Source: Methylicorpusculum oleiharenae (GTDB lineage Bacteria; Pseudomonadota; Gammaproteobacteria; Methylococcales; Methylomonadaceae). From it: 64,000 nt of DNA. Under the pieces are notes generated by a model. It did not search any database, had not been told where the DNA came from, and saw only the letters and a list, made by a program, of their open reading frames with translations. Position numbers and translations under genes: made by a program. The stretch lies in contig NZ_WUTY02000002.1 of NCBI RefSeq assembly GCF_009828925.2, forward strand, positions 186,001 to 250,000. The letters run 5' to 3'. Positions 7,449 through 62,816 of the stretch are shown piece after piece. The first letter of the stretch is position 1. Each line of letters starts with the position of its first letter.

Positions 7449-7451
7449 GGG

Positions 7452-32725: not shown

Positions 32726-33045
32726 CGAAACGAATAAGGTTAGATTGTGTGAGTAACGCGAACCACAATCTGAACCGATTGTTGGACAAGCCCGGTGATC
32801 ACAGTGCTGACGGTATGCTTTATATAAGAAAATAGCTTTTCGGAGTTCTGGGGTAGCGAAGGCCTGGTTACCGCTTCAAGACCCAGAACTCACATAGGAG
32901 TGGTGACCTATCGCTTCGATGGCATCGGAAGGCCGCTTTTGGGGGTATTTTAGCCCTAATTTTGGCCGAACGAAGCTGTCGGCCTTGGAAAGGCCGATGA
33001 TCGTATGGTGGGTTATGTTAATCGTTTACATAGCCTGTGGCACCC

Positions 33046-35062: not shown

Positions 35063-35175
35063 TGACGCGTAACCTCATGATTCGTAGTGGAATGTTCCCT
35101 CGGAATGAGGGCTTGAGGTTACATTTTATAAAATACCAGGCGCCGCGACTCTTCTCCGCGTTAGCGGCTTCGTCC

Positions 35176-35478: not shown

Positions 35479-35806
35479 ATTTTATTTCTAACGAATAAGG
35501 TTAGATTGTGTGAGTAACGCGAACCACAATCTGAACCGATTGTTGGACAAGCCCGGTGATCACAGTGCTGACGGTATGCTTTATATAAGAAAATAGCTTT
35601 TCGGAGTTCTGGGGTAGCGAAGGCCTGGTTACCGCTTCAAGACCCAGAACTCACATAGGAGTGGTGACCTATCGCTTCGATGGCATCGGAAGGCCGCTTT
35701 TGGGGGTATTTTAGCCCTAATTTTGGCCGAACGAAGCTGTCGGCCTTGGAAAGGCCGATGATCGTATGGTGGGTTATGTTAATCGTTTACATAGCCTGTG
35801 GCACCC

Positions 35807-36919: not shown

Positions 36920-37823
36920 CTGACCTTCCCCCAGTCGATGGCAAAGCCATTCATCAAGGCATTGATCAGTTGGTTGGCGTTCTGATTCGTGCCATCGGTC
37001 AGGTGGGTATAGCGGGCGGTAGTGAGGATACTGTGGTGGCCGAGGATTTTCTGCACTTCCAGCAGATCGACGCCGGCTTCGATCAGATGGGTGGCGTAGC
37101 TGTGACGGAGACAATGCGGGCTAATCTTTTTTTTAAGCCGCAATCTTGCGCGACTTGGCGCAATGTGGCTTGCACGCCGCCGCGATCCAGCGGCGTGATC
37201 GCCTGGCCTGCCCCATTCAAGCCGCCGTGGCGGTTGGGAAACAGCAGGACCGGATTGCGATGGACTTTCCAGAAACGGCGAAGCAAATCCAATGTCACCG
37301 CCGGCAAAGGGACAAGTCTGTCCTTGTTGCCCTTGGCATCGCGGATATGCACGCGCTGGCGTTCGGCGTCTATATCGCCCACTTGCAGCCGCAAGCCCTC
37401 GCCGAGGCGTAGGCCAAGACTGTAGAGCGTAAAAAAGAAGACTCGGTAACTGAGCGTACGAGTGGCCGAGAAAAGCTGCCGCGCCTCTTCCACGGTCACG
37501 ATGTCCGGCAAACGTTGGGCTCTGGGCGGTTTGATCAGACCGGGAGCGACCCAGGGTTTACGCAGCACATGGATATAATAGAATTTAAGGCCGTAGAGAT
37601 CGAGTTTGACCGAACTCCAGGAATGAGACGCCAGCAAATCGGTGAAATAATCGGTCAACTGCGCTTCGGACAGGTTCTCAATCTGTTCGTCGAAATACTC
37701 GCCGACGCGGCGAATAGCACGGGCGTAAGCCTCTATCGTCTTTGGCTGGAGCCCTTTGAGTTTAAGGTGTTTAAGATGGGTTTGATAGTTTTGCTTGAAA
37801 GGGGATTCGGAAGATGTTGTCAT
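36916..37823 (-). CDS. Tyrosine recombinase of the IS91-type element, copy 2 (with -1 frameshift)
   Basis: Same two-frame arrangement as copy 1 (37083-37823 and 36916-37143) joined at the A8 run near 37133. The fused product keeps Arg, H-x-x-R, His and Tyr. The N-terminal core-binding part begins [33 protein letters not shown]. Preservation of the run in all copies argues against random mutation. Confidence 0.8.
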
Positions 37824-37936
37824 TGACGCGTAACCTCATGATTCGTAGTGGAATGTTCCCTCGGAATGAGGGCTTGAGGTTACATTTTATAAAATACCAG
37901 GCGCCGCGACTCTTCTCCGCGTTAGCGGCTTCGTCC

Positions 37937-46439: not shown

Positions 46440-46934
46440 CTAATACGCTTGCTCAATCTTCGACTTGCTTTTTTCGTCCAACTCATTCCACACCGCCATT
46501 ACCGCCCTTCCGATTGCGGCCTGTTCAGCCTGTTCTCTACCAAACAGCCAATACGATCCGTAAACACTGATTGCCGATGCCGTAATGGCGATTGTCAGAG
46601 CGATTAAAACTTGCGATCGCACTGACAAGCCGTCCGCACGTTCTACCTCATTGACCATCCGATTGACGGTTTTGGTCACGGCCGTATTCAGCTTGGCTTC
46701 GAAGACTTTTTTTTCCCGGTCGGCCACCCTGGAAAATTCGGCCTGTTTTTCGAGGGCATGGCTGTCTACCCGAGCAATCGAAGCGACCAGCTTATTTTCC
46801 AGTTCAGCAACGAGAGGCATGAATTTAGCTTCAACTTCGCCGATCTGTTGAATCAGGATGCTAATTTCATCAATGGCTTCAATAAGCAGTGCTGCCCTTT
46901 TTCCCCGTCCAGGCCTTATCTCGTTCACGCTCAT
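46440..46934 (-). CDS. stbC: StbC-like membrane protein
   Basis: 164 residues. A long helical, charged N-terminal part (~15-105; EAIDEISILIQQIGEVEAKFMPLVAELENKL, coiled-coil-like), then one membrane segment (VLIALTIAITASAISVYGSYWLF, ~108-130) and a short tail. It is third in a StbA-StbB-StbC-like order and overlaps the ATPase stop by one base. The R388 StbC role is unclear. The name rests mainly on position. Confidence 0.5.
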   Translation of the reverse strand: MSVNEIRPGRGKRAALLIEAIDEISILIQQIGEVEAKFMPLVAELENKLVASIARVDSHALEKQAEFSRVADREKKVFEAKLNTAVTKTVNRMVNEVERADGLSVRSQVLIALTIAITASAISVYGSYWLFGREQAEQAAIGRAVMAVWNELDEKSKSKIEQAY

Positions 46935-47638
46935 TAGCCGAATAGCTCGGCGAAACAGTCGTCAAGATTTTTGCTAACGTGCTTAGCAAGGCATTTCAGC
47001 CCATACATATCGATCCAGTGATCACGTTGTTTTTGATCCGCCTCTTTGTTTTCGCGCAGAAGCGCCCTGTAATCCTTGTTATCTTCCTGCAATTTTTTAA
47101 TCGTCATTTTTTTTATCGCCAGTTCGTCAAATAGCTCACTTTCAAAAATAAGCGCTTTGTTGTTGATTGGTATGTTATTTTTTTTTGTGTAATTCAATAA
47201 TACGAGAAATTCTTCTTCAACATTTGATTCTACCCGGTTAAATATGAGTCGTATTTTACTGTCAGGTATGCCGAATTCCTTTAGCGTCATGATCATCGAA
47301 ATGGTTTCTCTCTGCTCCTTCGTGCCGCTTGTCACCGGTATAACAAAGAAATTAATTTCCTCATGCGTCGCACTGAACCGATTCATTCCATTAAGAAAGT
47401 TTTCGATATTCGATGTCCCTACATCAATAATCGGTGCATCCGTATCAATTATTTTCCTAAATATCTCTTTAAATTTATCAGCCTTAATTTGATCAACTTT
47501 TATTCCAATACCGGCTGCCGATTCATTAAAACTTTCTACCGCAATTATCGAAGAGTTATTTATGCGTGGCAGGAGCAAATGCGAGGCGATTGTGGTTTTT
47601 CCAACAGTACCAGTGTAATTCATAACGACGACTTTCAT
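46934..47638 (-). CDS. stbB: ParA/StbB-like P-loop ATPase
   Basis: 234 residues. MKVVVMNYTGTVGKTTIASHLLLPR is a deviant Walker A; TDAPIIDVGTSNIENFL is the Walker B region; FVIPVTSGTKEQRETISMI and IRLIFNRVE follow the ParA/MinD fold. R388 StbB is needed for conjugation and is a partner of StbA in balancing plasmid positioning. It sits between stbA- and stbC-like genes on one transcript. Confidence 0.78.
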   Translation of the reverse strand: MKVVVMNYTGTVGKTTIASHLLLPRINNSSIIAVESFNESAAGIGIKVDQIKADKFKEIFRKIIDTDAPIIDVGTSNIENFLNGMNRFSATHEEINFFVIPVTSGTKEQRETISMIMTLKEFGIPDSKIRLIFNRVESNVEEEFLVLLNYTKKNNIPINNKALIFESELFDELAIKKMTIKKLQEDNKDYRALLRENKEADQKQRDHWIDMYGLKCLAKHVSKNLDDCFAELFG

Positions 47639-47689
47639 TTATTGATTACCTTTATAAAATTTAAAAATATTTTTATAATTAAATGTTGC

Positions 47690-48184
47690 TCAATCATAAT
47701 TACCATTAAGATCATCATCTAATTCTTTTAGCGTTTTTTCTCTAATTTTCCTTATGTCATCCGGAGTATGATATTTTTTAGAGTCATCTTCTTTAATATC
47801 GACTCTATCATTGGTATTCTCTTTATCCATAAGATGGGCTTGGTCGCTTATGATCGATTTATCATTATTTCCATTATCAACATATGGATATACTTGATTA
47901 ATAATATTATCTGATATAAGGTCTGTATAACTATTTTTTCGAGTAACGCCCTTTTGTTTTCTTTCTTTTCTGATGCGGTATAAGTTTTTGTCGAAGGATT
48001 GAAGAGTTATCCTTCGATCATAAGTTTCGTTCAGCTTTTTCAGTATTATTTCTCTCGTCACACCCGAGGCTAGTGATGTCTCAATCTGATCGTACAGAGT
48101 CCGCATTAACATCGTTCCGCTCTTGTTCCCCATATCAACTTTTAATCCTTCTAGTACTTTGAGCCCTTCTTCTTTTGTTTTCAA
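47690..48184 (-). CDS. stbA: StbA-like DNA-binding stability protein
   Basis: 164 residues. The N-terminal ~75 residues (GNKSGTMLMRTLYDQIETSLASGVTREIILKKLNETYDRRITLQSFDKNLYRIRKERK) fit the HTH domain of StbA. The rest is an Asp/Asn/Lys-rich flexible tail. Family knowledge: R388 StbA binds arrays of 9-bp direct repeats spaced every 11 bp and controls plasmid stability and transfer. Five 11-bp-spaced repeats lie 20-75 bases upstream, which supports the call. Confidence 0.72.
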   Translation of the reverse strand: MKTKEEGLKVLEGLKVDMGNKSGTMLMRTLYDQIETSLASGVTREIILKKLNETYDRRITLQSFDKNLYRIRKERKQKGVTRKNSYTDLISDNIINQVYPYVDNGNNDKSIISDQAHLMDKENTNDRVDIKEDDSKKYHTPDDIRKIREKTLKELDDDLNGNYD

Positions 48185-48202
48185 ATCGTTCTCCCTTATC
48201 TC

Positions 48203-48257
48203 TAGTCCGACACTTGTCCGGCTAATGTCCTATGCGCGTCCAGCATCTGTCTAGCGC
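48203..48257 (-). promoter_or_regulatory. Five 11-bp iterons (stbDR-like) upstream of stbA
   Basis: GTCC/GTCT tetramers start at 48205, 48216, 48227, 48238 and 48249, exactly 11 bases apart: TAGTCCGACAC, TTGTCCGGCTA, ATGTCCTATGC, GCGTCCAGCAT, CTGTCTAGCGC. The five-copy, one-helical-turn layout copies the R388 stbDR arrangement, though the sequence differs. It is a likely binding array for the StbA-like protein, serving autoregulation and segregation. Confidence 0.7.
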
Positions 48258-48368
48258 ATGGCTTAATACCGTACTAATAGCAACGCATGCTTGACTGCTA
48301 AATTTCACTAATTCGTCGTGCGGATGTCTTACTTCAAGCTTACACACAGCCAAACGCGTTTGCTCGAC

Positions 48369-48397
48369 CGAAAGACGCGGTTTTTCGGCCTCTTTCG
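48369..48397 (-). promoter_or_regulatory. Shared 29-bp dyad element, copy 3 (stb operon)
   Basis: In gene orientation: CGAAAGAGGCC-GAAAAA-CCGCGTCTTTCG, with perfect outer arms. It lies 184 bases before the stbA ATG and upstream of the GTCC iterons. It differs from copy 4 at one base. Confidence 0.75.
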
Positions 48398-49140
48398 ATT
48401 TTGTGGTGCATGCCAGTTGACAATCTCTGGAGGATCATTAGAAAATTGAAGTTCGTTGATGGGTTTTGTGCAGCAGGATGCCTCTATCCCGATAAGTCGT
48501 GCTACGGGAGCACGCTAAACAGATCCGAGATCCCCCGGACCGCTAAGGCGGCAGGAAGCCACCGGGACCCTTCTTTACCGGCAAAATAGCCGGAAAATCA
48601 TCGCGCCCAAGTTGCGTCCACTGATCGCATAAATGTTATGCGTCAGTATAATTATCCTATATTTTAGTAAGTTGTGCTTTGAGGCGTTGTTTTCACGCAC
48701 ATTAATCCAAAATTCAATTACCCTGAAAGAACGGGTGAATTTTTAACCCTTGCACGCAAGATCAGTCCGTAAGACGGCGCCTTTGCGTCCCACCCGGAAA
48801 TCGGCCAAAATTTTTTCCCCCGCCGCTTTTTCTCAACATAGACACTTTAGTCTTTGTTCATTCCAAGCCAAATTTCCCAAAAGAAACAGCGGCTTACCAA
48901 CTCCACGCATCCAAATTCCATTTAGGAAAAGTTGGGATTCGCTGGATTTTCACGTTGAAACCGCTCAGAACGAGGCAGCGCCTGTCCATAGAAAATGTAT
49001 GGCAGCCCGATTGACACCCACCTGCACGGCGTAATTTCAGCAATTTTTCGCCTCGCGCGGCGTCGAAACAAATAGCGCACTGACGCCCTTTTACCTGTAG
49101 CCCTGCTGGGAGGCTGTTCCCAAGCACCTTATGCTCACCC

Positions 49141-49229
49141 CGTCGAGAGAAGTGTGTCCGCAGAAAAAGAGGCGTTGGTGGAATCCCCTTAGGATTTCAC
49201 CAGGAGCCGGGTTACGCCTGCTCTCGACG
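49141..49229. ncRNA. Large nested stem-loop, possible structured RNA
   Basis: Three nested pairings: CGTCGAGAG/CTCTCGACG, AGGCGT/ACGCCT and GGTGGAATCC/GGATTTCACC. The last includes one wobble or mismatch pair. The 89-nt unit is far more structured than its surroundings. It could be an RNA or a DNA cruciform. No known RNA family recognised; strand unknown. Confidence 0.45.
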
Positions 49230-49257
49230 TAAAAGAACAATAGGTCACACCCCGGCT

Positions 49258-49315
49258 CCACACCGGAGCGGCCGATAGCTCGTGCGTGCACGGGTTATCG
49301 GCTGCTGCGGTGTGG
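49258..49315 (+). other. Stem-loop containing a CRISPR-repeat-like core
   Basis: Stem parts CCACACCG/CGGTGTGG, GCCGATA/TATCGGC and CGTGC-GT-GCACG. Bases 49281-49300 are identical over 20 nt to the 3' part of CRISPR repeat 3 (54374-54393), including the hairpin and TATCG handle. In the array TATCG is unpaired; here it pairs with an upstream arm. No second repeat and no spacer is seen. Confidence 0.65.
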
Positions 49316-49351
49316 GGCTGATCGCCAATTTTGACGACAAGGTAGTGAAAA

Positions 49352-49380
49352 CGAAAGAAGCCGAAAAACCGCGTCTTTCG
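49352..49380 (+). promoter_or_regulatory. Shared 29-bp dyad element, copy 4 (49-kb cluster)
   Basis: CGAAAGAAGCC-GAAAAA-CCGCGTCTTTCG, 67 bases before the first gene of the plus-strand cluster. Only here does a -10-like TATAAC (49382-49387) follow directly, so in this copy the element may occupy the -35 area. Confidence 0.75.
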
Positions 49381-49447
49381 CTATAACCGATCTTGGTCTA
49401 AAGCAATATGCTGCCCACTTCTAATTCCAAAATCTATAGGAACTTTT

Positions 49448-50128
49448 ATGAGCAAAGTGGTAAAAACGATTGATAATAAAGGCCTTATTCCCGTAGTTGA
49501 CGGCGAAATCGCCGGCATCAAGCAACTTGTGGTGGACGGGAGGACGCTCCACGCGACTATGGGAGTCAGTCGTGACTTCACGACCTGGATGAAAAAGCGC
49601 ATTTCCGACTACGGGTTTCAGAAAGGTGTTGACTACCTACTCACCAAAACGGGGGAGCAGCTTCCAAGTGGCACAAAATATTCCTGCGACTACACCCTCA
49701 CCCTCGAAATGGCCAAGGAATTGGCAATGATTGAACGTAATGACATGGGCAGGAAAATTCGGCGCTATTTCATCCAATGCGAACGGGACCTACTGATGAA
49801 TCAGTGTGCGAATATGCAACGTAACGAAAAAATTGCCGAGCGAGACAGGGAAAAGGAAGATCGGGAGTTTTGTCACTTGCATGAATTAACGATTTCACGC
49901 GTTCTTTACTGGGCCATAAAAAAACGCGACCACATTTACCAGCCCGGTATGGATCATGATCTACTGTTTTCGATTCTTGAAGATATTCAGGCCTCCATTT
50001 ATAAAGAACATATTCGCAGCTTTAAAAGAAAATTCCCGTTTGCATATTCGTCCGAATATTTTTTAGAAATGAAATCATTCATTAAAAATTGGACGCCAGT
50101 ATTTTTCACAAATAGCTCAGCACCCTAA
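49448..50128 (+). CDS. AntA/AntB antirepressor-domain protein 1
   Basis: 226 residues. AntA/AntB domain at ~25-115 (VVDGRTLHATMGVSRDFTTWMKKRISDYGFQKGVDYLL, LTLEMAKELAMIERNDMGRKIRRYF). A second domain (~145-226) ends IKNWTPVFF and recurs in two neighbours. Phage antirepressors of this type counteract repressors. It heads the cluster after control element copy 4; AGGAA precedes the ATG. It probably regulates the element; target unknown. Confidence 0.8.
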   Translation: MSKVVKTIDNKGLIPVVDGEIAGIKQLVVDGRTLHATMGVSRDFTTWMKKRISDYGFQKGVDYLLTKTGEQLPSGTKYSCDYTLTLEMAKELAMIERNDMGRKIRRYFIQCERDLLMNQCANMQRNEKIAERDREKEDREFCHLHELTISRVLYWAIKKRDHIYQPGMDHDLLFSILEDIQASIYKEHIRSFKRKFPFAYSSEYFLEMKSFIKNWTPVFFTNSSAP

Positions 50129-50226
50129 AAACGAACGAAAAGGCGCTTAAAAGTCGATCCTTTTGATGTTGCTAAGTCGTCAATAAAAATAATATATTCA
50201 ATTTTTCGACACTTATATTATGAATA

Positions 50227-50529
50227 ATGATCCTTACGACTAAAGAAAAAGACTCAAATGATAACGAAATCCTTACCCTATCAAATGACCTGTCAACTGT
50301 TATTTTTGATCGGATAAAATACTGGTCAGAAATCAGGCTTGGCATGAGTGATATAACTGATTTCAATTCAGAAACAATAGCCTTAATGAAAACTGAAATC
50401 GAGAACGATTTAATAGAAGAGTTATCGAACGCTATCCGCCTCAACTTGAATGATGAATATATTCCATTGCAAAGCCTTATTTACTTTATAAACAACTTTC
50501 AACCCAAGTTCTATCTAAATAGGCATTAA
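50227..50529 (+). CDS. Stand-alone C-domain relative of the Ant-like proteins
   Basis: 100 residues, acidic and helical. Pattern FDRIKYWSEIRLG ... LMKTEIENDLIEEL ... LIYFINNFQPKFYL matches the C-terminal domains of the proteins at 49448 and 51926 (W near the start, FI-x-x-W/F-x-P-x-F at the end). It has no AntA domain. It could be a partner or a split half of the next gene. AT-rich compared with genes downstream. Confidence 0.5.
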   Translation: MILTTKEKDSNDNEILTLSNDLSTVIFDRIKYWSEIRLGMSDITDFNSETIALMKTEIENDLIEELSNAIRLNLNDEYIPLQSLIYFINNFQPKFYLNRH

Positions 50530-50575
50530 ATAAAAGTTACCAATATACCTAACATTAATTATAGGGTTTTTTATT

Positions 50576-50914
50576 ATGTCCCAACAAAATAAATCATTAT
50601 TAGCATCTAAAAAAATTGATATCGACAAATCGGTGATATACAGAAGACTAAAGGGATCAAATACGCCGTTGGATATCTTACTCGACTGGCATGTTCTTCA
50701 TAAAATCCTTCAAACCGAAACTGATTTTTCACAGTGGATTCGTTCTATCATTCAAGAGTACCGATACGTTCAGGGTGAGGATTACTTTTTAGAAGAAAAC
50801 CACTATGCCTACATTACGTTAGATATGGCAAAAGAGATCTGCTTACTCAACAAAAGTGAAGCCGGCATGTCGCTCCGTCGCACACTGATAACGTTAACCT
50901 CGACTATCAATTAG
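50576..50914 (+). CDS. AntA/AntB antirepressor-domain protein 2 (N-domain only)
   Basis: 112 residues. AntA pattern: LLDWHVLHKILQTETDFSQWIRSIIQEYRYVQGEDYFLEE and YITLDMAKEICLLNKSEAGMSLRRTL. It ends right after the domain, lacking the C-domain that protein 1 and 3 have; the gene just before encodes that type of domain alone. Same direction, ~46 bases apart. Confidence 0.7.
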   Translation: MSQQNKSLLASKKIDIDKSVIYRRLKGSNTPLDILLDWHVLHKILQTETDFSQWIRSIIQEYRYVQGEDYFLEENHYAYITLDMAKEICLLNKSEAGMSLRRTLITLTSTIN

Positions 50915-50965
50915 CGTTTCATGCTAGATCTGATTTTCATCGAATCCTTTGCATAGCCTCGCTTA

Positions 50966-51907
50966 ATGGACAAAACGCTTACACACCACAAAGTACGCCG
51001 TCATCCTTTGTATAAAAGCGGCGAAGAAGCCTTAACGCGCCTTCCGGCTTGTCCATTACAAAAGCGACCGGTACTGATCAATCATTGGTTACGTTTTTGC
51101 GTATGGTCAACTACCCAAGACGGTAATCAGCTTGACAGCATTGTATCGGTTACCCGTGATCACGTTATCCGCTACGGACAGTATTTAAAATCCGAATTCG
51201 ACCTCGGAAAACGCTTAAGCACAGCCGGTGCGGCCAGTAGCTTATCTTTTGTGAATGCGGTCATGAGGCTGATGGACAACGACTGGCAAACCGTAGGCGC
51301 AGTAACCGACTGCGGCATCCAACCTTGTTCCCATATCCCCACTAACAAACTGCAGCTAGACAAAAACGGTCTCCCCGATAGTGAAAGCCTTGCCGGTTAC
51401 CTACTCGAACTCCAGTCGGTCCTTGGCGTTACCGTGAGAGAAGCGTTGCTTCTTGATTTGAAAAAATCGCTCATAGAAGGTCGAACAACAGGATTTGTAA
51501 CGGTAACGCACTATCAAAACGGTGTGAGACGAAAAGTTCCGTGTCGACCCGCAGCGATCAAAGCACTGGGCAGCGGCATAGCGGCCAGACGCTTGCAGAA
51601 GCGGTTGCCCAAAAAATGGGCATTTGATGATTTTCTCGCAGCGCACAACAAACTTGCGGCCAGAAAAGGTTACTCCACCAATACTGCCCGTGGTCACTAC
51701 GCTCGCGATCGGTACCGAGAACTGACCGGCGTCGAGCCACCGATTCTTTCCGAACTTAGCCCAACTGACCATTGGCACGCCATTGCTCAGCATACCAATA
51801 AGACATTATCCGAAGCGAAAGGACTCGACAAAAATTCTCGTCATGCAATAGCCAAGGAACTGGGCTTATTAGGTATCGAGACCGTATCGTCTTTTTTAGA
51901 CAAGTGA
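50966..51907 (+). CDS. Inactive tyrosine-recombinase-like protein
   Basis: 313 residues, aligning along its length with 52569-53507 (shared CGI...IP, RYREL and late helices). It keeps the first Arg (VTVREALLLD). By my alignment the H-x-x-R His is Asn (STNTARGHY), the second His is Leu (ELGLLGIE) and the nucleophile Tyr is Phe (SSFLDK). It is therefore unlikely to cut DNA and may bind the same sites as a regulator or structural partner. Confidence 0.7.
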   Translation: MDKTLTHHKVRRHPLYKSGEEALTRLPACPLQKRPVLINHWLRFCVWSTTQDGNQLDSIVSVTRDHVIRYGQYLKSEFDLGKRLSTAGAASSLSFVNAVMRLMDNDWQTVGAVTDCGIQPCSHIPTNKLQLDKNGLPDSESLAGYLLELQSVLGVTVREALLLDLKKSLIEGRTTGFVTVTHYQNGVRRKVPCRPAAIKALGSGIAARRLQKRLPKKWAFDDFLAAHNKLAARKGYSTNTARGHYARDRYRELTGVEPPILSELSPTDHWHAIAQHTNKTLSEAKGLDKNSRHAIAKELGLLGIETVSSFLDK

Positions 51908-51925
51908 TTTCAACAAAGGTATTCC

Positions 51926-52564
51926 ATGAAGACAATAAACAAAAGCAAGGACAATTCAGCCCCCGTACCAGTGTTTAGCGTCAAGCTACGTGGCATTGTT
52001 GTTTGGTCAGTGAGTGCGCGAGACCTGCACGCCGCCCTGAAGTTGAAAGGCAGGCCGACCTATGAAGAGTGGATTAACGCCAAAATCGTCACTCATCGAC
52101 TTATTGAAGGCCGAGATTACGTGTTCTCCAGAATCCGTATCGGACAAGGACGCTGGTTAAACGACTACTTCGTAACGCTGTCGATGGCGCAAGGATTGTG
52201 CCTGTCCGAAGGCTATTGGTCGGGTGGTGCCGTAAGAAAAGCGCTGATGGAAACCGAGATCACGATCAACCGAAAACACTACATGCACCATAAAAACCAA
52301 GCCAAGCAGGCAGAGGTTCATATGCTAATGGAGCATAGATCATTGTACTGGTCGCACATCAAGCTTGAAATGCTTTTGGCTACCGGCTCGACATGCGCAT
52401 CCGGATCGCTTCATGCCAATGTTCTTATAGCCGCACAATTATTACGAGATGAACTAAGCCACGATCTCAGGACAGAACTTTTTTCCGGGAAAACCAGCTA
52501 TAAAGATCAACGTCAATTTATCGAGCACTGGAAACCCGCGTTTACTTTGGCGTTAGAGAGTTAA
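51926..52564 (+). CDS. AntA/AntB-like protein 3
   Basis: 212 residues. The N-domain (VWSVSARDLHAALKLKGRPTYEEWINAKIVTHRLIEGRDYVF, VTLSMAQGLCLSEGYWSGGAVRKAL) is a divergent AntA-type domain; the C-domain (~130-212) ends FIEHWKPAF like protein 1. It is 18 bases after the inactive recombinase and 4 before the active one, so [Ant-like + recombinase-like] is a repeated two-gene unit. Confidence 0.65.
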   Translation: MKTINKSKDNSAPVPVFSVKLRGIVVWSVSARDLHAALKLKGRPTYEEWINAKIVTHRLIEGRDYVFSRIRIGQGRWLNDYFVTLSMAQGLCLSEGYWSGGAVRKALMETEITINRKHYMHHKNQAKQAEVHMLMEHRSLYWSHIKLEMLLATGSTCASGSLHANVLIAAQLLRDELSHDLRTELFSGKTSYKDQRQFIEHWKPAFTLALES

Positions 52565-52568
52565 CAAC

Positions 52569-53507
52569 GTGAGTCGAAATTATGATATCGGCAGCCGGGA
52601 CATGTTTACGGCGGGCAGAATGCTATTGAAAGACCGTTCGTTGAATGGGTTCAAAACCCAATCCGATTACATCGACCGCTGGCGACTGTTTACCGTGTAC
52701 GCCGAAGCAAAGGGCGTAAAGAAAATGGAGCAGGTGACGGCGTCCTTCGTGATCGACTATGGCCGGCACTTGCAAAAGCAATTGGAAGCCGGCGTCTATT
52801 CCAGCGCATCGGCGCCGAAAAACTATGTGTCGACCGTCAATTGCGTTATGCGCCTGGCTACCGGCGGACAATGGAAAACGGTTCGCCCGAGCAAAGATTG
52901 TGGCATCGAACGCAGAAAATACATTCCCAAGACCTCCAAAGCCTTACCTGAAGCTAAACACCAAGCGGTTCAGCACGCGATCGATGACCGGCTGGCGAGA
53001 ATCATGGATCTGCAACGGACGCTGGGTTTGCGTTTCAAAGAAAGTTGCCTCTTTGACGCCAATGCCGCTTTGAAGCAACTCGGCAAATTCGGTTTCATCA
53101 CCATCCAATCAGGAACCAAAGGTGGCCGACCCAGACGATTACCGTGCGATGACGAAATGCGGAAAGTAATCGAAGCGGCGGCGGAGATTCAATCGGGAAG
53201 ATCGATGATCCCAAAAGAGATGACCTATCTCAAATTCCGCCAGGAATGCTACCAACAAGCCAAAGCCAACGACATGTCCTTTCATCCCGAGCGCCACGCC
53301 TTTGCTCAGAAGCGTTACCGAGAATTGGTAAAAGCGCCTTGTCCACTGGAAGCCGGCTGGGAACATAAAGGTCGAATTGGCAAGCTTGCCGAATACCTGT
53401 CCATTTCCGAGACGGAAGCCAAGCGTATTGACGAGGAAGCACGCCTCAAAATCTCCATGGAATTAGGTCATTCTCGCGTGGAGATCAGCAATGCGTACCT
53501 GGGCTAA
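52569..53507 (+). CDS. Tyrosine recombinase (integrase-domain family)
   Basis: 312 residues, GTG start. SAM-like N-domain (~10-105; FKTQSDYIDRWRLFTVYAEAKGV), catalytic part with Arg in RTLGLRFKESCLF, Lys in QSGTKGGRPRRLP, H-x-x-R in SFHPERHAFA, and His plus Tyr in MELGHSRVEISNAYLG. All catalytic residues are present. It resembles plasmid/ICE proteins of the Integrase_1 group. Target could be a dimer-resolution or integration site of the element. It overlaps the next gene by 17 bases. Confidence 0.78.
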   Translation: MSRNYDIGSRDMFTAGRMLLKDRSLNGFKTQSDYIDRWRLFTVYAEAKGVKKMEQVTASFVIDYGRHLQKQLEAGVYSSASAPKNYVSTVNCVMRLATGGQWKTVRPSKDCGIERRKYIPKTSKALPEAKHQAVQHAIDDRLARIMDLQRTLGLRFKESCLFDANAALKQLGKFGFITIQSGTKGGRPRRLPCDDEMRKVIEAAAEIQSGRSMIPKEMTYLKFRQECYQQAKANDMSFHPERHAFAQKRYRELVKAPCPLEAGWEHKGRIGKLAEYLSISETEAKRIDEEARLKISMELGHSRVEISNAYLG

Positions 53508-54024
53508 AGAACTCGAATCGCACACCCACGATTATGTGCGCCGCGGTGGCAAGCAGAATCGTCAAAAGCAGGTTTCTTTGATCATCAACTTCCTGGAATT
53601 CATTGATACCCAAGAGGGACTGACATCGCTTCAGCGCTTAGGCAAACGCCACGTCATCAATTTCTGGAAAGCCCATCGAGACCTACCTGAAAAATCGGCT
53701 TACGATTACTGGTTAGGGTTATGCCAGCTGTGGAGTTGGCTTGGCAAATCGGAAAAGCCGCCACGGCCGCATAAAATGGCCGCTCAATCCGATAGTCCGG
53801 AAGCCCAAAAAGATCAAGCCCATGCGGCGTTGTCCTTTACCGAATTCTCCGCGGCCATCAAGGCGGCGCGTGCGGCGAAACGCCTGCCGATTCTCAAGCT
53901 TGCGAACTTGTCCGGTTGTGATCCAATACTCATTAATGAAATTGAGTCTGGCAAATACGGATCAGCCGCTGTTAGGGACATAGAGAATTTGTTGAGAGTT
54001 TTAAAAATAAAATTAACGAGATAA
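53491..54024 (+). CDS. Recombinase-N-domain plus helix-turn-helix protein
   Basis: 177 residues. The first ~95 look like a recombinase core-binding domain (KQVSLIINFLEFIDTQEGL, VINFWKAHRDLPEKSAYDYWLGLCQLWSWL) without catalytic part. Residues ~130-175 look like an XRE-type HTH (LPILKLANLSGCDPILINEIESGKYGSAAVRDIENLLRVL). It overlaps the recombinase gene and may modulate it, like an excision or directionality factor (inference). Last gene before the CRISPR leader. Confidence 0.6.
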   Translation: MRTWAKELESHTHDYVRRGGKQNRQKQVSLIINFLEFIDTQEGLTSLQRLGKRHVINFWKAHRDLPEKSAYDYWLGLCQLWSWLGKSEKPPRPHKMAAQSDSPEAQKDQAHAALSFTEFSAAIKAARAAKRLPILKLANLSGCDPILINEIESGKYGSAAVRDIENLLRVLKIKLTR

Positions 54025-54243: not shown

Positions 54244-54513
54244 GTCTTTCCCGTGCGTGCGTGGGTTATCGTGTGCTGTAATCGGCATTAGTCACTTGAG
54301 CAAGGTCTTTCCCGTGCGTGCGCGGGTTATCGCGACTATGAGCGAATCCAAGCAATCGCGTCTCAGTCTTTCCCGTGCGTGCACGGGTTATCGTCCGCAG
54401 GGCGCTAGTAAGAGGTAGCACCCAATGTCTTTCCCGTGCGTGCGCGGGTTATCGCAACTTAGGATCGCAGCCTAAAAAGCTTCGAGTCTTTCCCGTACTT
54501 GCACCTGTCATTT
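54244..54513 (+). CRISPR. CRISPR array of the type IV-A locus
   Basis: 28-bp repeats at 54244, 54305, 54366 and 54427, and a degenerate fifth at 54486. The repeat begins GTCTTTCCCG and ends GGGTTATCG, with a CCCGTGC-GT-GCACGGG hairpin in repeat 3. Spacers are 33, 33, 33 and 31 nt (54272-54304, 54333-54365, 54394-54426, 54455-54485). Only the hairpin bases vary (GCGTGG, GCGCGG, GCACGG). The last repeat is decayed after CCCGT. Spacer targets cannot be told here. Confidence 0.92.
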
Positions 54514-54612
54514 TGTGCAATCCGATGAACATTCAGTGTTGAACGCCCATCCATCTAAAAACACACCCCAAAAAAACGGGTATCCGATAAGAATCGTGTG
54601 GAAACTGAAAAA

Positions 54613-57388: not shown

Positions 57389-58099
57389 ATGACTACAACA
57401 CCATTTTTGATTGAGGCCAAACTGGATAGTCCACTTATCATTACGGATGACGCCTATTTGACGTTGGACTCTTTGCTTTCAGCATCTTTACAGATGATTG
57501 GAGGAGCAAAGCAAGACTTACCTCTTGATCAAACAGCAGGCATTTATCACGCGTCTGCCGCTATTCTGGTTGGCGATTCCCCTATCACCGGTCAAGCGCC
57601 TTTCGTTTCACGGATAACCAATCGTGATTGCGAGATTCCAAATCTCCATCCATGGACTAATGGTAAAGTTAAGAAACCCAAAAAAACTCTTCATCTTAAA
57701 AGTTTCCCAAATGCAGCAAGGATAGATAAATATCCTCTATACCAATATCCAAAAGTAATCTGGTTTGGCAAGGGTGACTTAGACCAAACACGCCATTTGC
57801 TGTCTTGTCTGCCTGGTGTTGGAAAGCGTTGCAATTCCGGTTTTGGTCAGGTCGCCGAATTTAACGCTACACAAATCACGACTGACTTTTCACTCAAGCT
57901 CCCTGATAGTTCTCCTGCGCGACCAATACCCGTCTCTTTAATCAATTTATTCGAGATTGATCAAGCAGAGTGTCTCATTGATAAAGCCACATTCAAGCCA
58001 AATTACTTCGACTATGCGTCTGCAGACATGTGCGTCATCCCGACAACGCGCAGTATTCTCTGTAAGAAGTTGTCTATGGTTAGGGATATTGCCGCATGA
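57389..58099 (+). CDS. csf3: Csf3 (Cas5-like) of type IV-A CRISPR
   Basis: 236 residues. N-terminal strand and helix IEAKLDSPLIITDDAYLTLDSLLSASLQ fits Csf3; a Gly-rich stretch LPGVGKRCNSGFGQVAEF near residue 150 fits a RAMP-type loop. Csf3 caps the 5' handle of the crRNA in the type IV effector complex. It is the first gene of the csf operon and overlaps csf1 by ATGA. Some type IV annotations could swap Csf3/Csf5 names; here the Cas6-like features are in the 58826 gene. Confidence 0.75.
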   Translation: MTTTPFLIEAKLDSPLIITDDAYLTLDSLLSASLQMIGGAKQDLPLDQTAGIYHASAAILVGDSPITGQAPFVSRITNRDCEIPNLHPWTNGKVKKPKKTLHLKSFPNAARIDKYPLYQYPKVIWFGKGDLDQTRHLLSCLPGVGKRCNSGFGQVAEFNATQITTDFSLKLPDSSPARPIPVSLINLFEIDQAECLIDKATFKPNYFDYASADMCVIPTTRSILCKKLSMVRDIAA

Positions 58100-58836
58100 A
58101 CTCAAAAAATAAAGAAGCGTTACTGTTCTACTACAAAAATTTCGGCAAAAAGGCTTTTCAATTTTGCGGTAATAATAAAAATGCCTATGCTGGAACGGAA
58201 AACGATCGTTGCGGTGGATGTGGTTCGACCCATGTTCAGCTGCATCTCCGGTCAACACATTCATTCTGCGATGTTTGTGTCAGTTTAGCGGGTGGCTATA
58301 TTGGACTTCCCGTTCCACAGTTCATGAATGACGGCTGGGTTGCTGTCGTATCAGAAAATGCAACAACCATCTCCAATGTAAAGTACGCAAGCCTATTTAC
58401 CGGAGTGCCAGGAATAACCCCTGTCCGTATAACCGCTAATTCAGCCATTGTTCAAACAATTATGTTCCCACCAGAGCCGCCGTTTCTGGTTGTCGAATTT
58501 AAGACTGCGAATGCGAGAGCTTGCCAAACTCAATCTATCAGTTATTCAAAAGACCTGATTTACATCGGATCAGACCGCTATAACGCAAAGATAATTCGTC
58601 GATTCGTCAAAGAAATTGATCGGATGGGTTTCGACATGAACCGCATTAACGATGTTGCCAACGCGTACTCAATCATCACAAAAAAATTAAGAAACGGAGA
58701 AGGTAATGAGAAACAGAGACAGATTATTCAAAAAATAGAAGCAAAACATCCCGGTATCACCGAGTTGGTCAAAGCAATGCCAATGTCAGACACCAAAGAT
58801 TACTCAATGCTCAAGAGATGCGTCAATGCACACTAA
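58096..58836 (+). CDS. csf1: Csf1 (type IV large-subunit-like protein)
   Basis: 246 residues. Zinc-finger-like cysteines DRCGGCGSTHVQ and HSFCDVCVSLAGGY at ~35-62, then a mixed domain and a helical C-terminus (KQRQIIQKIEAKHPGITELVKAM). Csf1 is the signature subunit of type IV complexes (Cas8-like position). It overlaps csf3 (4 bases) and the next gene (11 bases). Confidence 0.85.
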   Translation: MNSKNKEALLFYYKNFGKKAFQFCGNNKNAYAGTENDRCGGCGSTHVQLHLRSTHSFCDVCVSLAGGYIGLPVPQFMNDGWVAVVSENATTISNVKYASLFTGVPGITPVRITANSAIVQTIMFPPEPPFLVVEFKTANARACQTQSISYSKDLIYIGSDRYNAKIIRRFVKEIDRMGFDMNRINDVANAYSIITKKLRNGEGNEKQRQIIQKIEAKHPGITELVKAMPMSDTKDYSMLKRCVNAH

Positions 58837-59392
58837 ATCGAGTTTAGCTGAAATAAAACTGATCGCGACTTGCACCATAGATGCTTACAAGGCGCATCAA
58901 TCTGCTTGGCAGTTTTTAGGCAAATCCCCTCATAATCAGCGTCATTTTCATCATGATTTCGTTCCACTTCCTTTTAACCAAGGTGCAGTTATTACCATTC
59001 GAGCGAGTCCAGAACACTTGCCAGCGAATGCAAAGCCAGTTCACATCAATTACGAACCAGGTATACCGTTAGAATTTTCATTAGTTTGTTCGCCAACGAT
59101 CAGTCGAGGAAACGGCAAAGAAGAGCCCTGCTTGACGCGTAAAGAGCTTCTTGCCTGGATTTGCACAAGATCTAAACCTAATGGATTCGAAGTCATTAAA
59201 GATTCGCTCGACTTTGATACGGAACCCGTATTGATCGCAAAGCCTGGCAAGCCTAAGTTTTATCTAAATCGAGCTTATTTCAATGGTGCGCTGAAAGTCA
59301 CCGACAGTGATCTTTTTGCCAAGGCATTAACTGTTGGCATAGGTCGACACAAAGGTCTTGGTTTTGGAATGCTAAAAATAACCAACCACTAA
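58826..59392 (+). CDS. csf5: Cas6-like crRNA endonuclease (Csf5)
   Basis: 188 residues. N-terminal IDAYKAHQSAWQFLG resembles Cas6e-type starts; C-terminal LFAKALTVGIGRHKGLGFGMLKI is the Gly-rich loop of Cas6 proteins. An early His (PHNQRHFHHDF) could be catalytic. It should cut the repeat 3' of the CCCGTGC hairpin to give crRNAs. 3 bases before csf2. Confidence 0.82.
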   Translation: MHTKSSLAEIKLIATCTIDAYKAHQSAWQFLGKSPHNQRHFHHDFVPLPFNQGAVITIRASPEHLPANAKPVHINYEPGIPLEFSLVCSPTISRGNGKEEPCLTRKELLAWICTRSKPNGFEVIKDSLDFDTEPVLIAKPGKPKFYLNRAYFNGALKVTDSDLFAKALTVGIGRHKGLGFGMLKITNH

Positions 59393-59395
59393 TAA

Positions 59396-60532
59396 TTGGA
59401 TAATCACATGCAAAAATTAAATCTCCTAATGAACGGCTACATCAAGGCAGATGACTTAAGCGCATTGGCTGTCGCACCCATGAAACAAGACAATGAGAAA
59501 ACCTGGTGGGATCGCGATAAATACGGTAACGAAGGCGATGAGAAAACAGCTCGTTTGCCGCGAATGGCCAAGTATTTTGAGTCTCTTGATGGCACTGCTG
59601 TTAATCAGTGCGTATTCGTACCTTACTTTCCCGCGTCCAGTATTCGCGGATCGATTAGACGTGCCTGCCGTGACGCGTTATTTGAATTGATGCAAGGCCA
59701 AAAGTGGAGCCTCAGTATGCACAGGCTGTTAACCATCGGCGGTGTTAGCACTTCCGGTGAAATGAAGGAAGTCAACATTAATCTCATTCAGGAGTTTCGA
59801 GATAAGAACCCATTGGTTTCATTATTCGGAGCAACGGCTGAACCCTCCCATCCATGGATAGAAGGTCGAATTTCTATTGGTCACGCCATGCCTGATGCGC
59901 CATTTAAGCCGACGATTGTGACCGGTGTTCGGACAGATCCAGTTCAACGGAACCCATCCGAAATCGTCATGCTTGATGAAGCATCGGCAGAAGCTTTAGA
60001 CAAAGTATGCAATGCCGGACGAACGATGTCGCGGATTAAAGCCAAAATCGAAGACTTGAATAAAGAAATCAAGGTAGCCAAAAAAGCAAATGCCCCCGCC
60101 GTCGCTATTCAAGAACAGCAGGATCAGATTGCTGAGTTAACCGAAAAAATGAACGAAGCGTCTGCTCTATTTGGCACAACAGTCAGCATACAAATGCCTC
60201 TTTCTGGTTATGAGGTCATTCCGCCTTGTTTGCCTCTTAATCAGAGAATCGTGGCTCGCGGTGTCAACTTGGTTGAACTGGGTTTGCTGGTCGCTGGTCT
60301 TCGTCGGTTTGCAAAAAATCCATTACTCGGTGCGCATCATGCGCATGGCTGCGGTGTCGTTCGGGGTGAATGGGAAGTCACTATTGGAGATTTTCGAGGA
60401 AAAGTCATTCTGGAGCCCTTTGTTGATCTTGTCATTGAGGGCGATAAGCTTTCTGATTTGTTCATCAAGGCGGAAGAGCATTTTAAATCAACCATGGATG
60501 GGTGTACTGAAGCGACCCTAAAACCAGCTTAA
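59396..60532 (+). CDS. csf2: Csf2 (Cas7-like backbone)
   Basis: 378 residues, annotated from the first in-frame start at 59396; the Met at 59408 (MQKLNLLMNGYIKADDLSAL) is more likely. Cas7-type features: YFPASSIRGSIRRACRDALFEL, then GRISIGHAMPDAP and RFAKNPLLGAHHAHGCGVVRGEW. A coiled coil (~205-255; IKAKIEDLNKEIKVAKKANAP...IAELTEKMNEA) is inserted. Csf2 forms the helical backbone on crRNA. Confidence 0.85.
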   Translation: MDNHMQKLNLLMNGYIKADDLSALAVAPMKQDNEKTWWDRDKYGNEGDEKTARLPRMAKYFESLDGTAVNQCVFVPYFPASSIRGSIRRACRDALFELMQGQKWSLSMHRLLTIGGVSTSGEMKEVNINLIQEFRDKNPLVSLFGATAEPSHPWIEGRISIGHAMPDAPFKPTIVTGVRTDPVQRNPSEIVMLDEASAEALDKVCNAGRTMSRIKAKIEDLNKEIKVAKKANAPAVAIQEQQDQIAELTEKMNEASALFGTTVSIQMPLSGYEVIPPCLPLNQRIVARGVNLVELGLLVAGLRRFAKNPLLGAHHAHGCGVVRGEWEVTIGDFRGKVILEPFVDLVIEGDKLSDLFIKAEEHFKSTMDGCTEATLKPA

Positions 60533-60576
60533 TCAGTGAATGCATATGCCACGACAGAAGCGCTCTAACTATCGAG

Positions 60577-60666
60577 GCCTTTCCCGCGCGTGCGCGGGTT
60601 GCAGTTACGCCATAAAAGAAAAAATATTACATGATTAGCCTTTCCCGCGCGTGCGCGGGTTGCAGT
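60577..60666 (+). CRISPR. Two-repeat mini-array between csf2 and dinG
   Basis: Two identical 29-nt repeats (60577-60605, 60638-60666; from GCCTTTCCCGCG to GGGTTGCAGT) with a 32-nt AT-rich spacer-length gap, so a 61-bp period as in the main array. The hairpin CCCGCGC...GCGCGGG keeps the same fold, but the 3' handle is GCAGT in place of ATCG. It may be a small array or a Cas6-processed control site in the csf mRNA. Confidence 0.75.
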
Positions 60667-60686
60667 AAGCGTTTTTTAAAATATTT

Positions 60687-60702
60687 CCCGGATTTTTCCG
60701 GG
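60687..60702 (+). terminator. Weak hairpin before dinG
   Basis: CCCGG-atttt(t)-CCGGG, followed later by TTTTTT (60716-60722). It may act as an attenuator between csf2/mini-array and dinG. The stem is only 5 bp. Confidence 0.35.
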
Positions 60703-60734
60703 TATTCTCAACTTAGTTTTTTCGGTAATTTATC

Positions 60735-62816
60735 ATGTCAGAACTAAAACAAACAGTGTTAGGTATCACTCGCGATGCCTTTGCAGAAGGAGGGGCGTTA
60801 TCGAAGATCTTTCGAAACTACATGCCGAATCCCGTGCAAATTGAGTATGCCGAAAAAGTTGCAAGTATCTTTGAGAATGGCTCGAATTCAGAACCCGCTG
60901 TCGGTCTGCTCGAAGCGGGTACGGGTATTGGCAAAACACTGGGTTATGCCATACCGCTTTTTGCCTATGCCGCTCTTCATAAAAAACGGGTTGCCATTTC
61001 TACATTTACCACCCAACTTCAGTCACAGCTTTTGAAGCCCGCTGGTGACATTGAGATTGCGCAACAAATTATTCGAGACTTTACCGGAACGTCCTTGTCG
61101 GTTGCCCCGAGAATGGGGTTGAGGAACTTTGTGAGTCCATTGAGAATTGCCTTTGCCCTTGCTGAAAAAGGCATCAAAGAAGACAAGGTATCGGATTCAT
61201 TGAAGTTGTTTATTAAATGGGCTGACGAATCAAAAACCGGTCTATTGTCTGAATGGAATCTTCGGCACGGTGAAATACCGTCTGAACTCTCATTATCGGA
61301 AATCTGCTGCGAACACCATTTGCCCACTGATGAAAAACTGCGTTATGAAATTCACAAGGATCGAGCCAAATCAGCGGATGTCATTGTCACCAATCATACG
61401 CTGACGTTGATGCATGCGCTTTCCAAAGAAATGGCTATTTTAGATAATCAGGATGATAGGCCTTTATCGGTGATCGTGATCGATGAAGCCGATAGAGTGG
61501 AGTCGGCTGCAGAACTCATGACGTCGCGAGCAGCTGCTTTACATTCAATCACCTCCCTATTTTTTTATGAAACCGATAAAGCCAGTAAACTAATTGCTAA
61601 TGGCATACAAGACATCTGTAAACTGGTTGCTGATTTCGACCCACAAAATAAATCATTTCTTGATGTCCGCGACCATCCAAAAATCTTATCCGAGATCGAG
61701 TTGCGCTTAAATACCATTTTGCCTTTGTTCGATCAATCCGCCAATCGATGTAATAACAGCGAGATGTATGCTGATATTCTTGCCCACAAAGAATCTTTGT
61801 CCAGATTTCTTAACAGAAGCGCTTTCGGTACGTCAACTTCTTCAATTCCGGTTATTTCCTTCTCGGAAGTACGGCGTTATCCATCGCTACGCCTTGTAGA
61901 TCCCAATCCGGCGACGGCGTTAGGGTTTTTATGGCGAAACGATGCTCAACAGGACAGAAAATCCTATTTGGATTCTGTACTGCTTACTTCGGCGACACTC
62001 AGTGACGGTAAAGAATCTTCGTTGAAAAATGTCGCTAATGCAATGGGACTGTTTCTTGCCAGGCGCCATCAACTTATCACTGGCATATTCGAACCGAAAG
62101 ACTTTGGGCGAATTTCAATTACCCTTCCGGACAAAAACGCTCCAATACCGACCTTGAAACAGGAAGATATCGACGAGTATTCAACGTCTCCGGAATGGAT
62201 CAATTACATGGCCAAAATGATTATCAAGGCATCCAGTAGCGGAGAACGAGTAGTGGCACTAACACTGTCCTATCGTGACACTCGACTGATTGCAGATGCC
62301 ATAGACCAGCAACACGGAACTTTGTCATTGATCCAGCACACTGAATCCGATTCTACACAAGATCTGCTCAGTCAGTTTGCCGATACTGAAGGCGCAATCC
62401 TGCTGTCACCGTCCTGCTGGGAAGGCGTGAATTTGCCAGGACTCGTCAAGAATTTGGTGATTACCCGCATACCGTTCACCCGTCCCGATCCAGTGCGTAT
62501 TCAGATCACACGAGAAAATATGTCGAGACGAGGAGTATCTATGTCTAGCATCAAATCTATGCTTTATGCGACTTCGGTCTGTAGCACTCGCAGAAAACTG
62601 CGACAAGCCATAGGCCGTGGCATCAGGCAAAAATCTGATGTTTGTAGGGTCTGGTTTGGTGATAAGAGAATCCATGAGCAGAATGGAAAGCTGCGCTTGG
62701 ATTCCTGTTTGCCTAGCCGATTCCTTCCCGAACTGAAATCCGCTGACACATTCCTCCTGGACGGGTCAGTGTTGCATGCCGAAGTAGAAGAGAAGCCAAA
62801 ATCTTTGGTGTGGTAA
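60735..62816 (+). CDS. dinG: CasDinG helicase (Csf4) of type IV-A
   Basis: 693 residues, superfamily 2 XPD/DinG-like. Walker A EAGTGIGKTLGYA (~62-72), DEAH-type VIVIDEADRVES (~250), motif VI QAIGRGIRQKSDVCRVW (~640). The four Fe-S cysteines of cellular DinG are not evident; CasDinG enzymes lack them. It unwinds DNA 5'-3' after crRNA-guided binding and gives type IV-A interference without a Cas3. It follows the mini-array and may be separately translated. Confidence 0.88.
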   Translation: MSELKQTVLGITRDAFAEGGALSKIFRNYMPNPVQIEYAEKVASIFENGSNSEPAVGLLEAGTGIGKTLGYAIPLFAYAALHKKRVAISTFTTQLQSQLLKPAGDIEIAQQIIRDFTGTSLSVAPRMGLRNFVSPLRIAFALAEKGIKEDKVSDSLKLFIKWADESKTGLLSEWNLRHGEIPSELSLSEICCEHHLPTDEKLRYEIHKDRAKSADVIVTNHTLTLMHALSKEMAILDNQDDRPLSVIVIDEADRVESAAELMTSRAAALHSITSLFFYETDKASKLIANGIQDICKLVADFDPQNKSFLDVRDHPKILSEIELRLNTILPLFDQSANRCNNSEMYADILAHKESLSRFLNRSAFGTSTSSIPVISFSEVRRYPSLRLVDPNPATALGFLWRNDAQQDRKSYLDSVLLTSATLSDGKESSLKNVANAMGLFLARRHQLITGIFEPKDFGRISITLPDKNAPIPTLKQEDIDEYSTSPEWINYMAKMIIKASSSGERVVALTLSYRDTRLIADAIDQQHGTLSLIQHTESDSTQDLLSQFADTEGAILLSPSCWEGVNLPGLVKNLVITRIPFTRPDPVRIQITRENMSRRGVSMSSIKSMLYATSVCSTRRKLRQAIGRGIRQKSDVCRVWFGDKRIHEQNGKLRLDSCLPSRFLPELKSADTFLLDGSVLHAEVEEKPKSLVW

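Follow-up and report, generated by a model that had tools for sequence, protein, structure and literature searches.

An MpsAB-type gene cluster with a conserved predicted structured RNA on a plasmid of the methanotroph Methylicorpusculum oleiharenae: a probable DNA mobilisation module

Results

A seven-gene cluster preceded by a predicted structured RNA

The window analysed here is a stretch of 64,000 nucleotides (nt) from the methanotroph Methylicorpusculum oleiharenae (Methylococcales), positions 186,001 to 250,000 of contig NZ_WUTY02000002.1 (G000:C2:186001-250000). It carries a plus-strand cluster of seven genes, among them an intact and a catalytically dead recombinase-type gene, together with a conserved RNA element upstream (Table 1). 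The genome consists of three contigs, C1 (5.24 Mb), C2 (535 kb) and C3 (69.9 kb), which are read as a chromosome and two plasmids. Matches to the active recombinase (52569-53507) were sought in a family panel of 201 genomes (G handles; G001 is a genome of the same genus) and in named contigs (L handles).

Table 1. Coordinates of the cluster and its surroundings, numbered from the first letter of the window
Feature	Position	Strand	Basis or remark
Stb-like divergent operon	46440-48184	-	three genes, the middle one ParA-like; names presumed
29-bp palindrome, candidate FlhDC/AcaCD-like box	48369-48397	+	184 bp upstream of the stb-like operon
Sigma-70-like promoter candidate TTGACA-18-GAAAAT for the RNA	48417-48446	+	weak; 1 found against 1.4 expected, i.e. 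chance level
oriT-like core motif AACATAGACAC, T-rich tract before it	48835-48845	+	read from the sequence
Conserved structured RNA element, predicted stems C, D, E, F, H and I in interlocked pseudoknots	48974-49275	+	covariance-model core 49068-49263
Strong hairpin, 31-nt arms, 84% complementary	49255-49318	+	overlaps the RNA 3' end
29-bp palindrome, candidate FlhDC/AcaCD-like box	49352-49380	-	67 bp upstream of the seven-gene operon
Ant1, AntA-domain protein	49448-50128	+	AntA match, E 4e-23
Ant C-domain-only protein	50227-50529	+	scores above shuffles against Ant1/Ant3 C-terminal parts
Ant2, AntA N-domain-only protein	50576-50914	+	AntA match, E 8e-12
Catalytically dead MpsA paralogue	50966-51907	+	T-N-R-L-F replaces R-H-R-H-Y
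Ant3, AntA-domain protein	51926-52564	+	AntA match, E 5e-12
MpsA-like tyrosine-recombinase-type (atypical) relaxase, catalytic residues intact	52569-53507	+	Pfam Integrase_1, E 9e-10
MpsB-like protein, helical N-domain and C-terminal helix-turn-helix (HTH)	53491-54024	+	17-nt overlap with mpsA

An earlier reading of this DNA from its letters alone (the sequence-only reading) had listed seven plus-strand open reading frames (ORFs) from 49448 to 54024, and all seven are present where it placed them. The split antirepressor domains that it described are also found: compared with the C-terminal regions of Ant1 and of Ant3, the 50227-50529 product scores higher than 500 of 500 shuffles, and Ant2 corresponds to the AntA N-domain. 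The proposed duplication of an Ant-plus-recombinase unit is real as homology, but the history behind it appears to be one of accretion, because relatives show the layouts active gene plus mpsB, Ant plus active gene, dead plus active gene plus mpsB, and Ant plus dead plus active gene plus mpsB, and because the dead and active proteins separate deep in the tree. Ant3 separates the dead from the active gene both in the window and in G002; in G001 it immediately precedes the active gene.

The active recombinase has matches in 29 of the 201 family genomes and in 52 named-contig loci, a few of these matches being weak. The loci belong to Methylococcales, Rhodocyclaceae, Vibrio, Idiomarina, Rheinheimera, Hahella and other groups. 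The gene that follows it is co-inherited in most loci, and many relatives have neither the dead gene nor an Ant gene. Gene order is kept across Methylococcales plasmids and chromosomal elements, in agreement with the earlier view of a conserved multi-part system rather than a scatter of phage genes. Compared with the G002 plasmid, the synonymous divergence (dS) is 0.018 for the dead gene and 0.208 for the active gene, and the operon therefore looks like a recombination mosaic.

The active recombinase and its partner resemble MpsA and MpsB

The active protein contains R155, H239, R242, H301 and Y310; its catalytic residues are intact, as had been read from the sequence alone. All five residues are present in 27 of 30 aligned active-type sequences, the exceptions being L136 (second His replaced by Asn), L023 (altered C-terminus) and L133 (a fragment). 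Over its length the protein is 38.2% identical (E 2e-64) to a protein encoded by the Salmonella record OX345320 (L143). The Salmonella homologue carries R162, H247, R250, H251 and Y319, the positions published for MpsA of Salmonella genomic island 1 (SGI1) in the available part of PMC6414798. By this comparison 52569-53507 encodes an MpsA-like protein, its link to SGI1 MpsA running through the Salmonella protein.

In OX345320 an mpsB-like ORF (7332-7631) begins right after mpsA, and phmmer matches it with the window MpsB (E 2e-12), as it does the mpsA neighbour in most loci. The HTH of the window MpsB has a Pfam match below the cut-off (E 0.004). A Foldseek search with its predicted structure matched the C-terminal HTH only (HipB/SinR-type folds, best E 0.04), with no significant PDB match for the N-domain. 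A search of E. coli genomes, with the mob region of the Salmonella record as query, gave no match.

The RNA element covaries and accompanies MpsA

Comparison of the spacers of 30 loci showed that the block 48974-49275 is conserved in 29 of them and is also present on C3, giving an element of ~290 nt that is absent from the sequence-only reading of the cluster. It shares the strand of the operon, whose first gene mostly follows at a distance of 38-237 nt. RNAalifold alone predicted two stems, A and D, together with a GCGC/GCGC stem that hardly varies; of the 18 pairs in this prediction, 11 are changed on both sides in some sequence. The GCGC stem was not adopted, and stems C, E, F, H and I were added by inspection. 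In the resulting segment order, F5 C D5 I5 F3 H5 E5 H3 D3 I3 E3, helices F, D, E and I would interlock. The 3' hairpin (Table 1) is a possible end or processing site of the RNA.

The alignment has 23 rows, with near-duplicate or partial copies (G002c25, G002p, G001C128, G130, G179 and AM2p) left out. Covariation was assessed on 16 representatives of <85% identity against a swapped-partner null, which leaves phylogeny unmodelled, and gave z-scores of 6.9 (D), 6.5 (F), 5.4 (C), 4.2 (E), 3.1 (H) and 2.7 (I). Helices D, E, F and C beat 5000 of 5000 such nulls, H 4991 and I 4980. The 47 decoy segment pairs had a median z of -0.1; four of them, corresponding to three distinct pairs, scored higher than 1.2 and map to F, D/H and I. 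In the fixed alignment 84.9% of cells pair, compared to 40-52% when the segments are slid, and 87 cells show a change on both sides, compared to 30 in shuffles. The number of pairs with such a change, a weaker measure, was reached by 12 of 500 shuffles, and the count of further pair types was not beyond shuffles (259 of 500 as high). Mismatches are biased towards G.T (34, vs 6 for A.C), and the plus strand folds better relative to shuffles (z -5.1) than the minus strand (z -1.9), so that the plus strand is likely the functional single strand.

Rfam searches of window positions 48150-49500 (E up to 5) and of four relatives at the gathering threshold returned no family at gathering score; the sole match with E<=5, a microRNA family on the minus strand (E 2.1), was rejected. 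A covariance model was built from 23 seeds, 22 MpsA-linked copies and that on C3, from 19 genomes, which makes the linkage of RNA to MpsA partly a matter of construction: the RNA is found in 25 of the 201 family genomes, all 25 with MpsA, and in 25 of the 29 MpsA genomes (Fisher p 5e-28). With the seed genomes excluded (182 genomes, 10 with MpsA), all six RNA genomes contain MpsA (Fisher p 5e-9). The model finds the RNA once per replicon in the own genome, and 34 of 37 copies lie upstream of an MpsA-type gene (12 of 14 for non-seed copies). The three copies with no MpsA-type gene downstream are those on G000:C3, G002:C11 (L221, 5905-6098) and G183:C120 (L220, 5273-5448), and the latter two are further candidates for elements mobilised in trans.

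Applied to MpsA loci of Salmonella, Vibrio, Idiomarina and others, the model yielded nothing above noise. MpsA loci of the Salmonella/Rheinheimera/Vibrio type (L143 5990-6350 and relatives) have covarying helices of their own between the origin of transfer (oriT) and mpsA, with an apparent crossing pair resembling an H-type pseudoknot (six sequences, no null control). The window RNA would thus be an analogue of the Salmonella-type RNA, its likeness to the SGI1 sgm-sRNA being one of position and behaviour only.

An alternative description of the 1-kb block between the two palindromes, as a miniature inverted-repeat transposable element with 33-bp terminal repeats, was rejected: the similarity to C3 runs past the palindromes, and the conserved core is the RNA.

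A candidate oriT core

In other genera, mpsA is preceded by ACAGAGACG: 18 of 29 loci that are not part of the RNA alignment have it, where shuffles would give 0.12, and 15 of the 18 also have an inverted partner. Allowing for close relationship, the 18 loci reduce to about nine groups. The methanotrophs have a related motif, ACA[GT]AGAC[AG], which is found in 19 of 30 of their spacers, and the window copy is the motif at 48835-48845, for which no inverted repeat was shown. AACATAGACAC and ACAGAGACG are presented as a candidate oriT core shared across genera. Plasmid C3 carries the RNA and the motif but neither MpsA nor MobH, and no relaxase was found among the 20 of its large ORFs tested. It may be mobilised in trans.

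Palindromic boxes and FlhC-family genes

The 29-bp palindrome pattern has 14 copies in the own genome and none for its reversed control, which occurs twice over the 201 genomes. Thirteen of the 14 copies are followed within 260 bp, in one fixed direction, by the start of an ORF with 90 or more amino acids (aa), compared to one in the opposite direction and to 29% for random ORF-free positions (p 1e-6). The exception is a box on the chromosome, which precedes the dead-active pair there by a long distance, and the count becomes 14 of 14 if an ORF of 61 aa is accepted. One gene after a box is TerC by Pfam; others (TraC, a transglycosylase, a DnaN-like protein and a coupling protein) were named by eye with the annotated gene order of the YRD-M1 plasmid as a guide. 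A reading of the palindromes as recombination sites (dif- or integron-like) was first favoured, and was abandoned since they are found shortly before gene starts and have a fixed orientation.

FlhC-family genes are located at C2:3251-3754 and 524166-524669 and at C1:3834752-3836476, the last beside one box. The two on C2 have identical scores and lie near both contig ends, suggesting a duplication. In the YRD-M1 plasmid, FlhC-family genes are annotated at 100843-102524, near TerC, TraD and MobH. MpsA is present in 10 of the 12 box-bearing family genomes, compared to 29 of 201 overall. By analogy of layout we infer an AcaCD-type regulon, in which the activator would bind these boxes.

The dead paralogue is old and maintained

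The dead and active recombinases of the window are paralogues with 26% identity. As the sequence-only reading had it, the dead copy has Phe in place of the catalytic Tyr and has lost both His residues; Arg-I is lost too. The Tyr to Phe change is, however, not general, being found in three of nine orthologues, with Tyr kept in the other six. None of the nine retains Arg-I or the second His, and the first His remains in just one. The nine dead loci each have an active gene in the locus or in the same genome, and the order is dead-active in eight; in G001 the two genes are on different contigs. The dead orthologues form one clade (support 1.0), well apart from all active proteins. The ratio of non-synonymous to synonymous substitution rates (dN/dS) is 0.10-0.38 in six computable pairs, with two further pairs saturated. 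Given these ratios and the single clade, the dead gene is, as judged from sequence comparison, an old paralogue maintained under purifying selection and not a decaying copy.

The predicted structure of the dead protein has a mean predicted local distance difference test score (pLDDT) of 85 and a predicted template modelling score (pTM) of 0.61. A Foldseek search gave no PDB match below E 0.001; the top of the list consists of tyrosine recombinases (E 0.002-0.1, with poor superposition), and MrpR and YopR (PDB 8a0a and 8bpz, E 0.01-0.03) are listed among XerA, IntI, lambda Int and Cre.

Surroundings of the cluster

On the left, the divergent minus-strand operon comprises genes 46440-46934, 46934-47638 and 47690-48184, of which the middle one has a ParA-type match below threshold (E 0.003). 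On the right, five repeats with a spacing of 59-61 nt lie at 54244-54518. The sequence-only reading had placed the cluster between an stb control region and a leader of clustered regularly interspaced short palindromic repeats (CRISPR): the repeats on the right are CRISPR-like, and the left operon is one that we take to be stb by name. Further right, 57389-62816 contains a transposase-like ORF followed by a cas6-type gene, a gene for a repeat-associated mysterious protein (RAMP) and a helicase; together with the repeats this resembles a type IV-like CRISPR set, and the YRD-M1 plasmid has a comparable cas6-helicase set after its own module.

The stretches 33005-35065 and 35766-37826, offset by 2761 bp, are two blocks with the same ORF layout and the same lengths (minus-strand ORFs of 435 aa and 246 aa). 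Judged by eye from a same-sized pair in L020, they combine a transposase-like ORF with a small tyrosine-recombinase-like ORF, and are an apparent duplicated insertion element. In the chromosome, C1 ~3.596-3.844 Mb contains MobH, ParM, a second dead-active-MpsB module, and tra-like and FlhC genes, and resembles a relative of these plasmids that became integrated.

Discussion

We consider it probable that the cluster is an enlarged MpsAB-type mobilisation module, which would initiate DNA transfer, inside a large conjugative plasmid. The parts, their order and conservation, the covariation of the RNA and the catalytic state of the two recombinases are established at the level of sequence. In the mechanism that we propose, an FlhDC-type activator would switch on the operon together with the tra genes. 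MpsA and MpsB would recognise oriT and, as suggested by SGI1, MpsA would nick it through its C-terminal tyrosine. By analogy with the sgm-sRNA, which SGI1 requires, the RNA would act in trans as an indispensable and probably structural component of the initiation complex. The dead paralogue might replace MpsA in the complex or compete with it, serving as a DNA- or RNA-binding subunit or as a brake, and C3, with RNA and motif, could be mobilised in trans as a client. The least certain step is that of the AntA proteins, which may tune the initiation of transfer.

Several observations weigh against this interpretation. Plasmid C2 also encodes a MobH relaxase (C2:378907), as does the YRD-M1 plasmid, and a second relaxase needs explaining. 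The strict oriT pattern is missing in 11 of the 29 other loci and in 11 of the 30 methanotroph spacers. The palindromes occur with no MpsA in two genomes (G042 and G112), and the MpsA genomes G049, G059, G130 and G140 gave no RNA match (those in G059 and G140 being weak partial MpsA matches). On the Salmonella record the best score of the RNA model is 12.7 bits (E 0.44), outside the expected place. In the plain alignment, pairing is 58% for helix F and 71% for helix C; after local re-registration by up to 5 nt, F is fully paired in 11 of 16 sequences and C in 15.

The recombinase could instead serve plasmid multimer resolution or maintenance, acting on a site beside partition genes of which the RNA region would be a part. 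This is what one might expect from its full catalytic set, from the plasmid's own MobH, and from the ParM- or Stb-like partition genes that adjoin the module in many G-handle loci and, among the 23 loci L146-L168, in 13 (in L147 with an StbX-type fragment alone); moreover, several small plasmids encode an MpsA-type gene, and four of those examined were typed as non-mobilizable. Yet the conserved sequence has the features of a plus-strand fold in single-stranded form and not those of a double-stranded res site, the oriT-like inverted repeat and MpsB are kept in distant genera, and the corresponding SGI1 genes are needed for transfer according to the available parts of PMC6414798 and PMC9299015, so we regard a resolution system as unlikely, though as a serious rival. 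It is also rather improbable that the RNA is only a cis-acting leader, an attenuator or riboswitch controlling the recombinase operon. Its strand and its distance from the first gene would suit such a role, but five other genes stand between it and mpsA in the window, three of its 37 copies have no MpsA-type gene downstream, and the SGI1 sgm-sRNA is described in the available text of PMC9299015 as trans-acting, with no substitute supplied by MpsAB.

We give very little credence to the switch proposed by the sequence-only reading, in which dead and active recombinases and split antirepressors invert or excise DNA at one site. Regulators with a recombinase fold that do not recombine DNA exist, MrpR and YopR being examples, both of which are in the fold list of the dead model, and the dead and active genes are co-inherited in the nine dead loci. 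However, the dead gene and Ant genes are both absent from many relatives, and the searches run showed no invertible or excisable segment and no paired core sites tied to the active protein.

Returning to the mobilisation module, putative tyrosine-recombinase relaxases of the MpsA type occur well beyond SGI1, and a maintained dead relaxase paralogue suggests that relaxases may be heteromeric. A more specific model, which we advance tentatively and with the odds somewhat against it, is a ribonucleoprotein relaxosome. Here the pseudoknotted RNA would be a stoichiometric architectural subunit for MpsA and MpsB on oriT, the relaxase of the Methylicorpusculum and Methylobacter plasmids would be a heteromer of active and dead subunits, and orphan cassettes of RNA and oriT would parasitise the machinery in trans. 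The RNA lies in the same place as in SGI1, in environmental hosts, with base-level predictions of its fold, a near-constant partner and natural orphans, making a role of RNA in the relaxosome directly testable. In the open-licence literature we found no report of the dead paralogue, the AntA genes, the interlocked RNA fold or MpsAB in methanotrophs.

The closest known system is that of SGI1, and the earlier statement that no system with this layout had been described was too strong, since mpsA-mpsB with oriT and an sRNA (small RNA) upstream are reported there (available parts of PMC6414798 and PMC9299015). In the text available from PMC9299015, SGI1 mobilisation requires oriT, MpsA, MpsB and the sgm-sRNA. 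The core of this RNA (~278 nt) is located between oriT and mpsA and is active in trans, and expressing MpsAB does not make up for its absence; for its discoverers a direct part in the transfer complex was one possibility, with no precedent known to them. The available part of PMC6414798 places mpsB after a single codon. For SGI1 relatives, a conserved three-stem-loop oriT is described in PMC8409611, in the available text of which the term sRNA is absent.

The window shares with SGI1 the order of a candidate oriT, a predicted RNA, mpsA and mpsB, the catalytic residues, MpsB as a separate small protein, a similar RNA length and a putative FlhDC/AcaCD-type control of the helper system. It differs in that the module is inside a conjugative plasmid with its own MobH and beside partition genes, that AntA genes and a dead MpsA paralogue stand between RNA and mpsA, that MpsB has an extra HTH, and that the RNA sequence is not recognisably the same. 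TcpM of pCW3 and MobK of pIGRK are alike by description, as relaxases on a tyrosine-recombinase catalytic domain with oriT upstream; unlike in the window, no mpsB equivalent was found in these plasmids, and the term sRNA is absent, in the available part of PMC8152469. The fold of the dead model recalls SPbeta MrpR and YopR at the modest E-values given above. The FlhC-family genes on the element and the fixed-orientation boxes upstream of transfer operons resemble the AcaCD regulon of IncA/C plasmids and the SetCD regulon of SXT, as far as the available parts of PMC4207636 and PMC4344509 describe them, a likeness of layout and not of box logo. Relative to the SGI1 kind, what is new here is the setting in a conjugative plasmid, the AntA genes, the maintained dead paralogue, the HTH-bearing MpsB and the predicted interlocked fold of the RNA.

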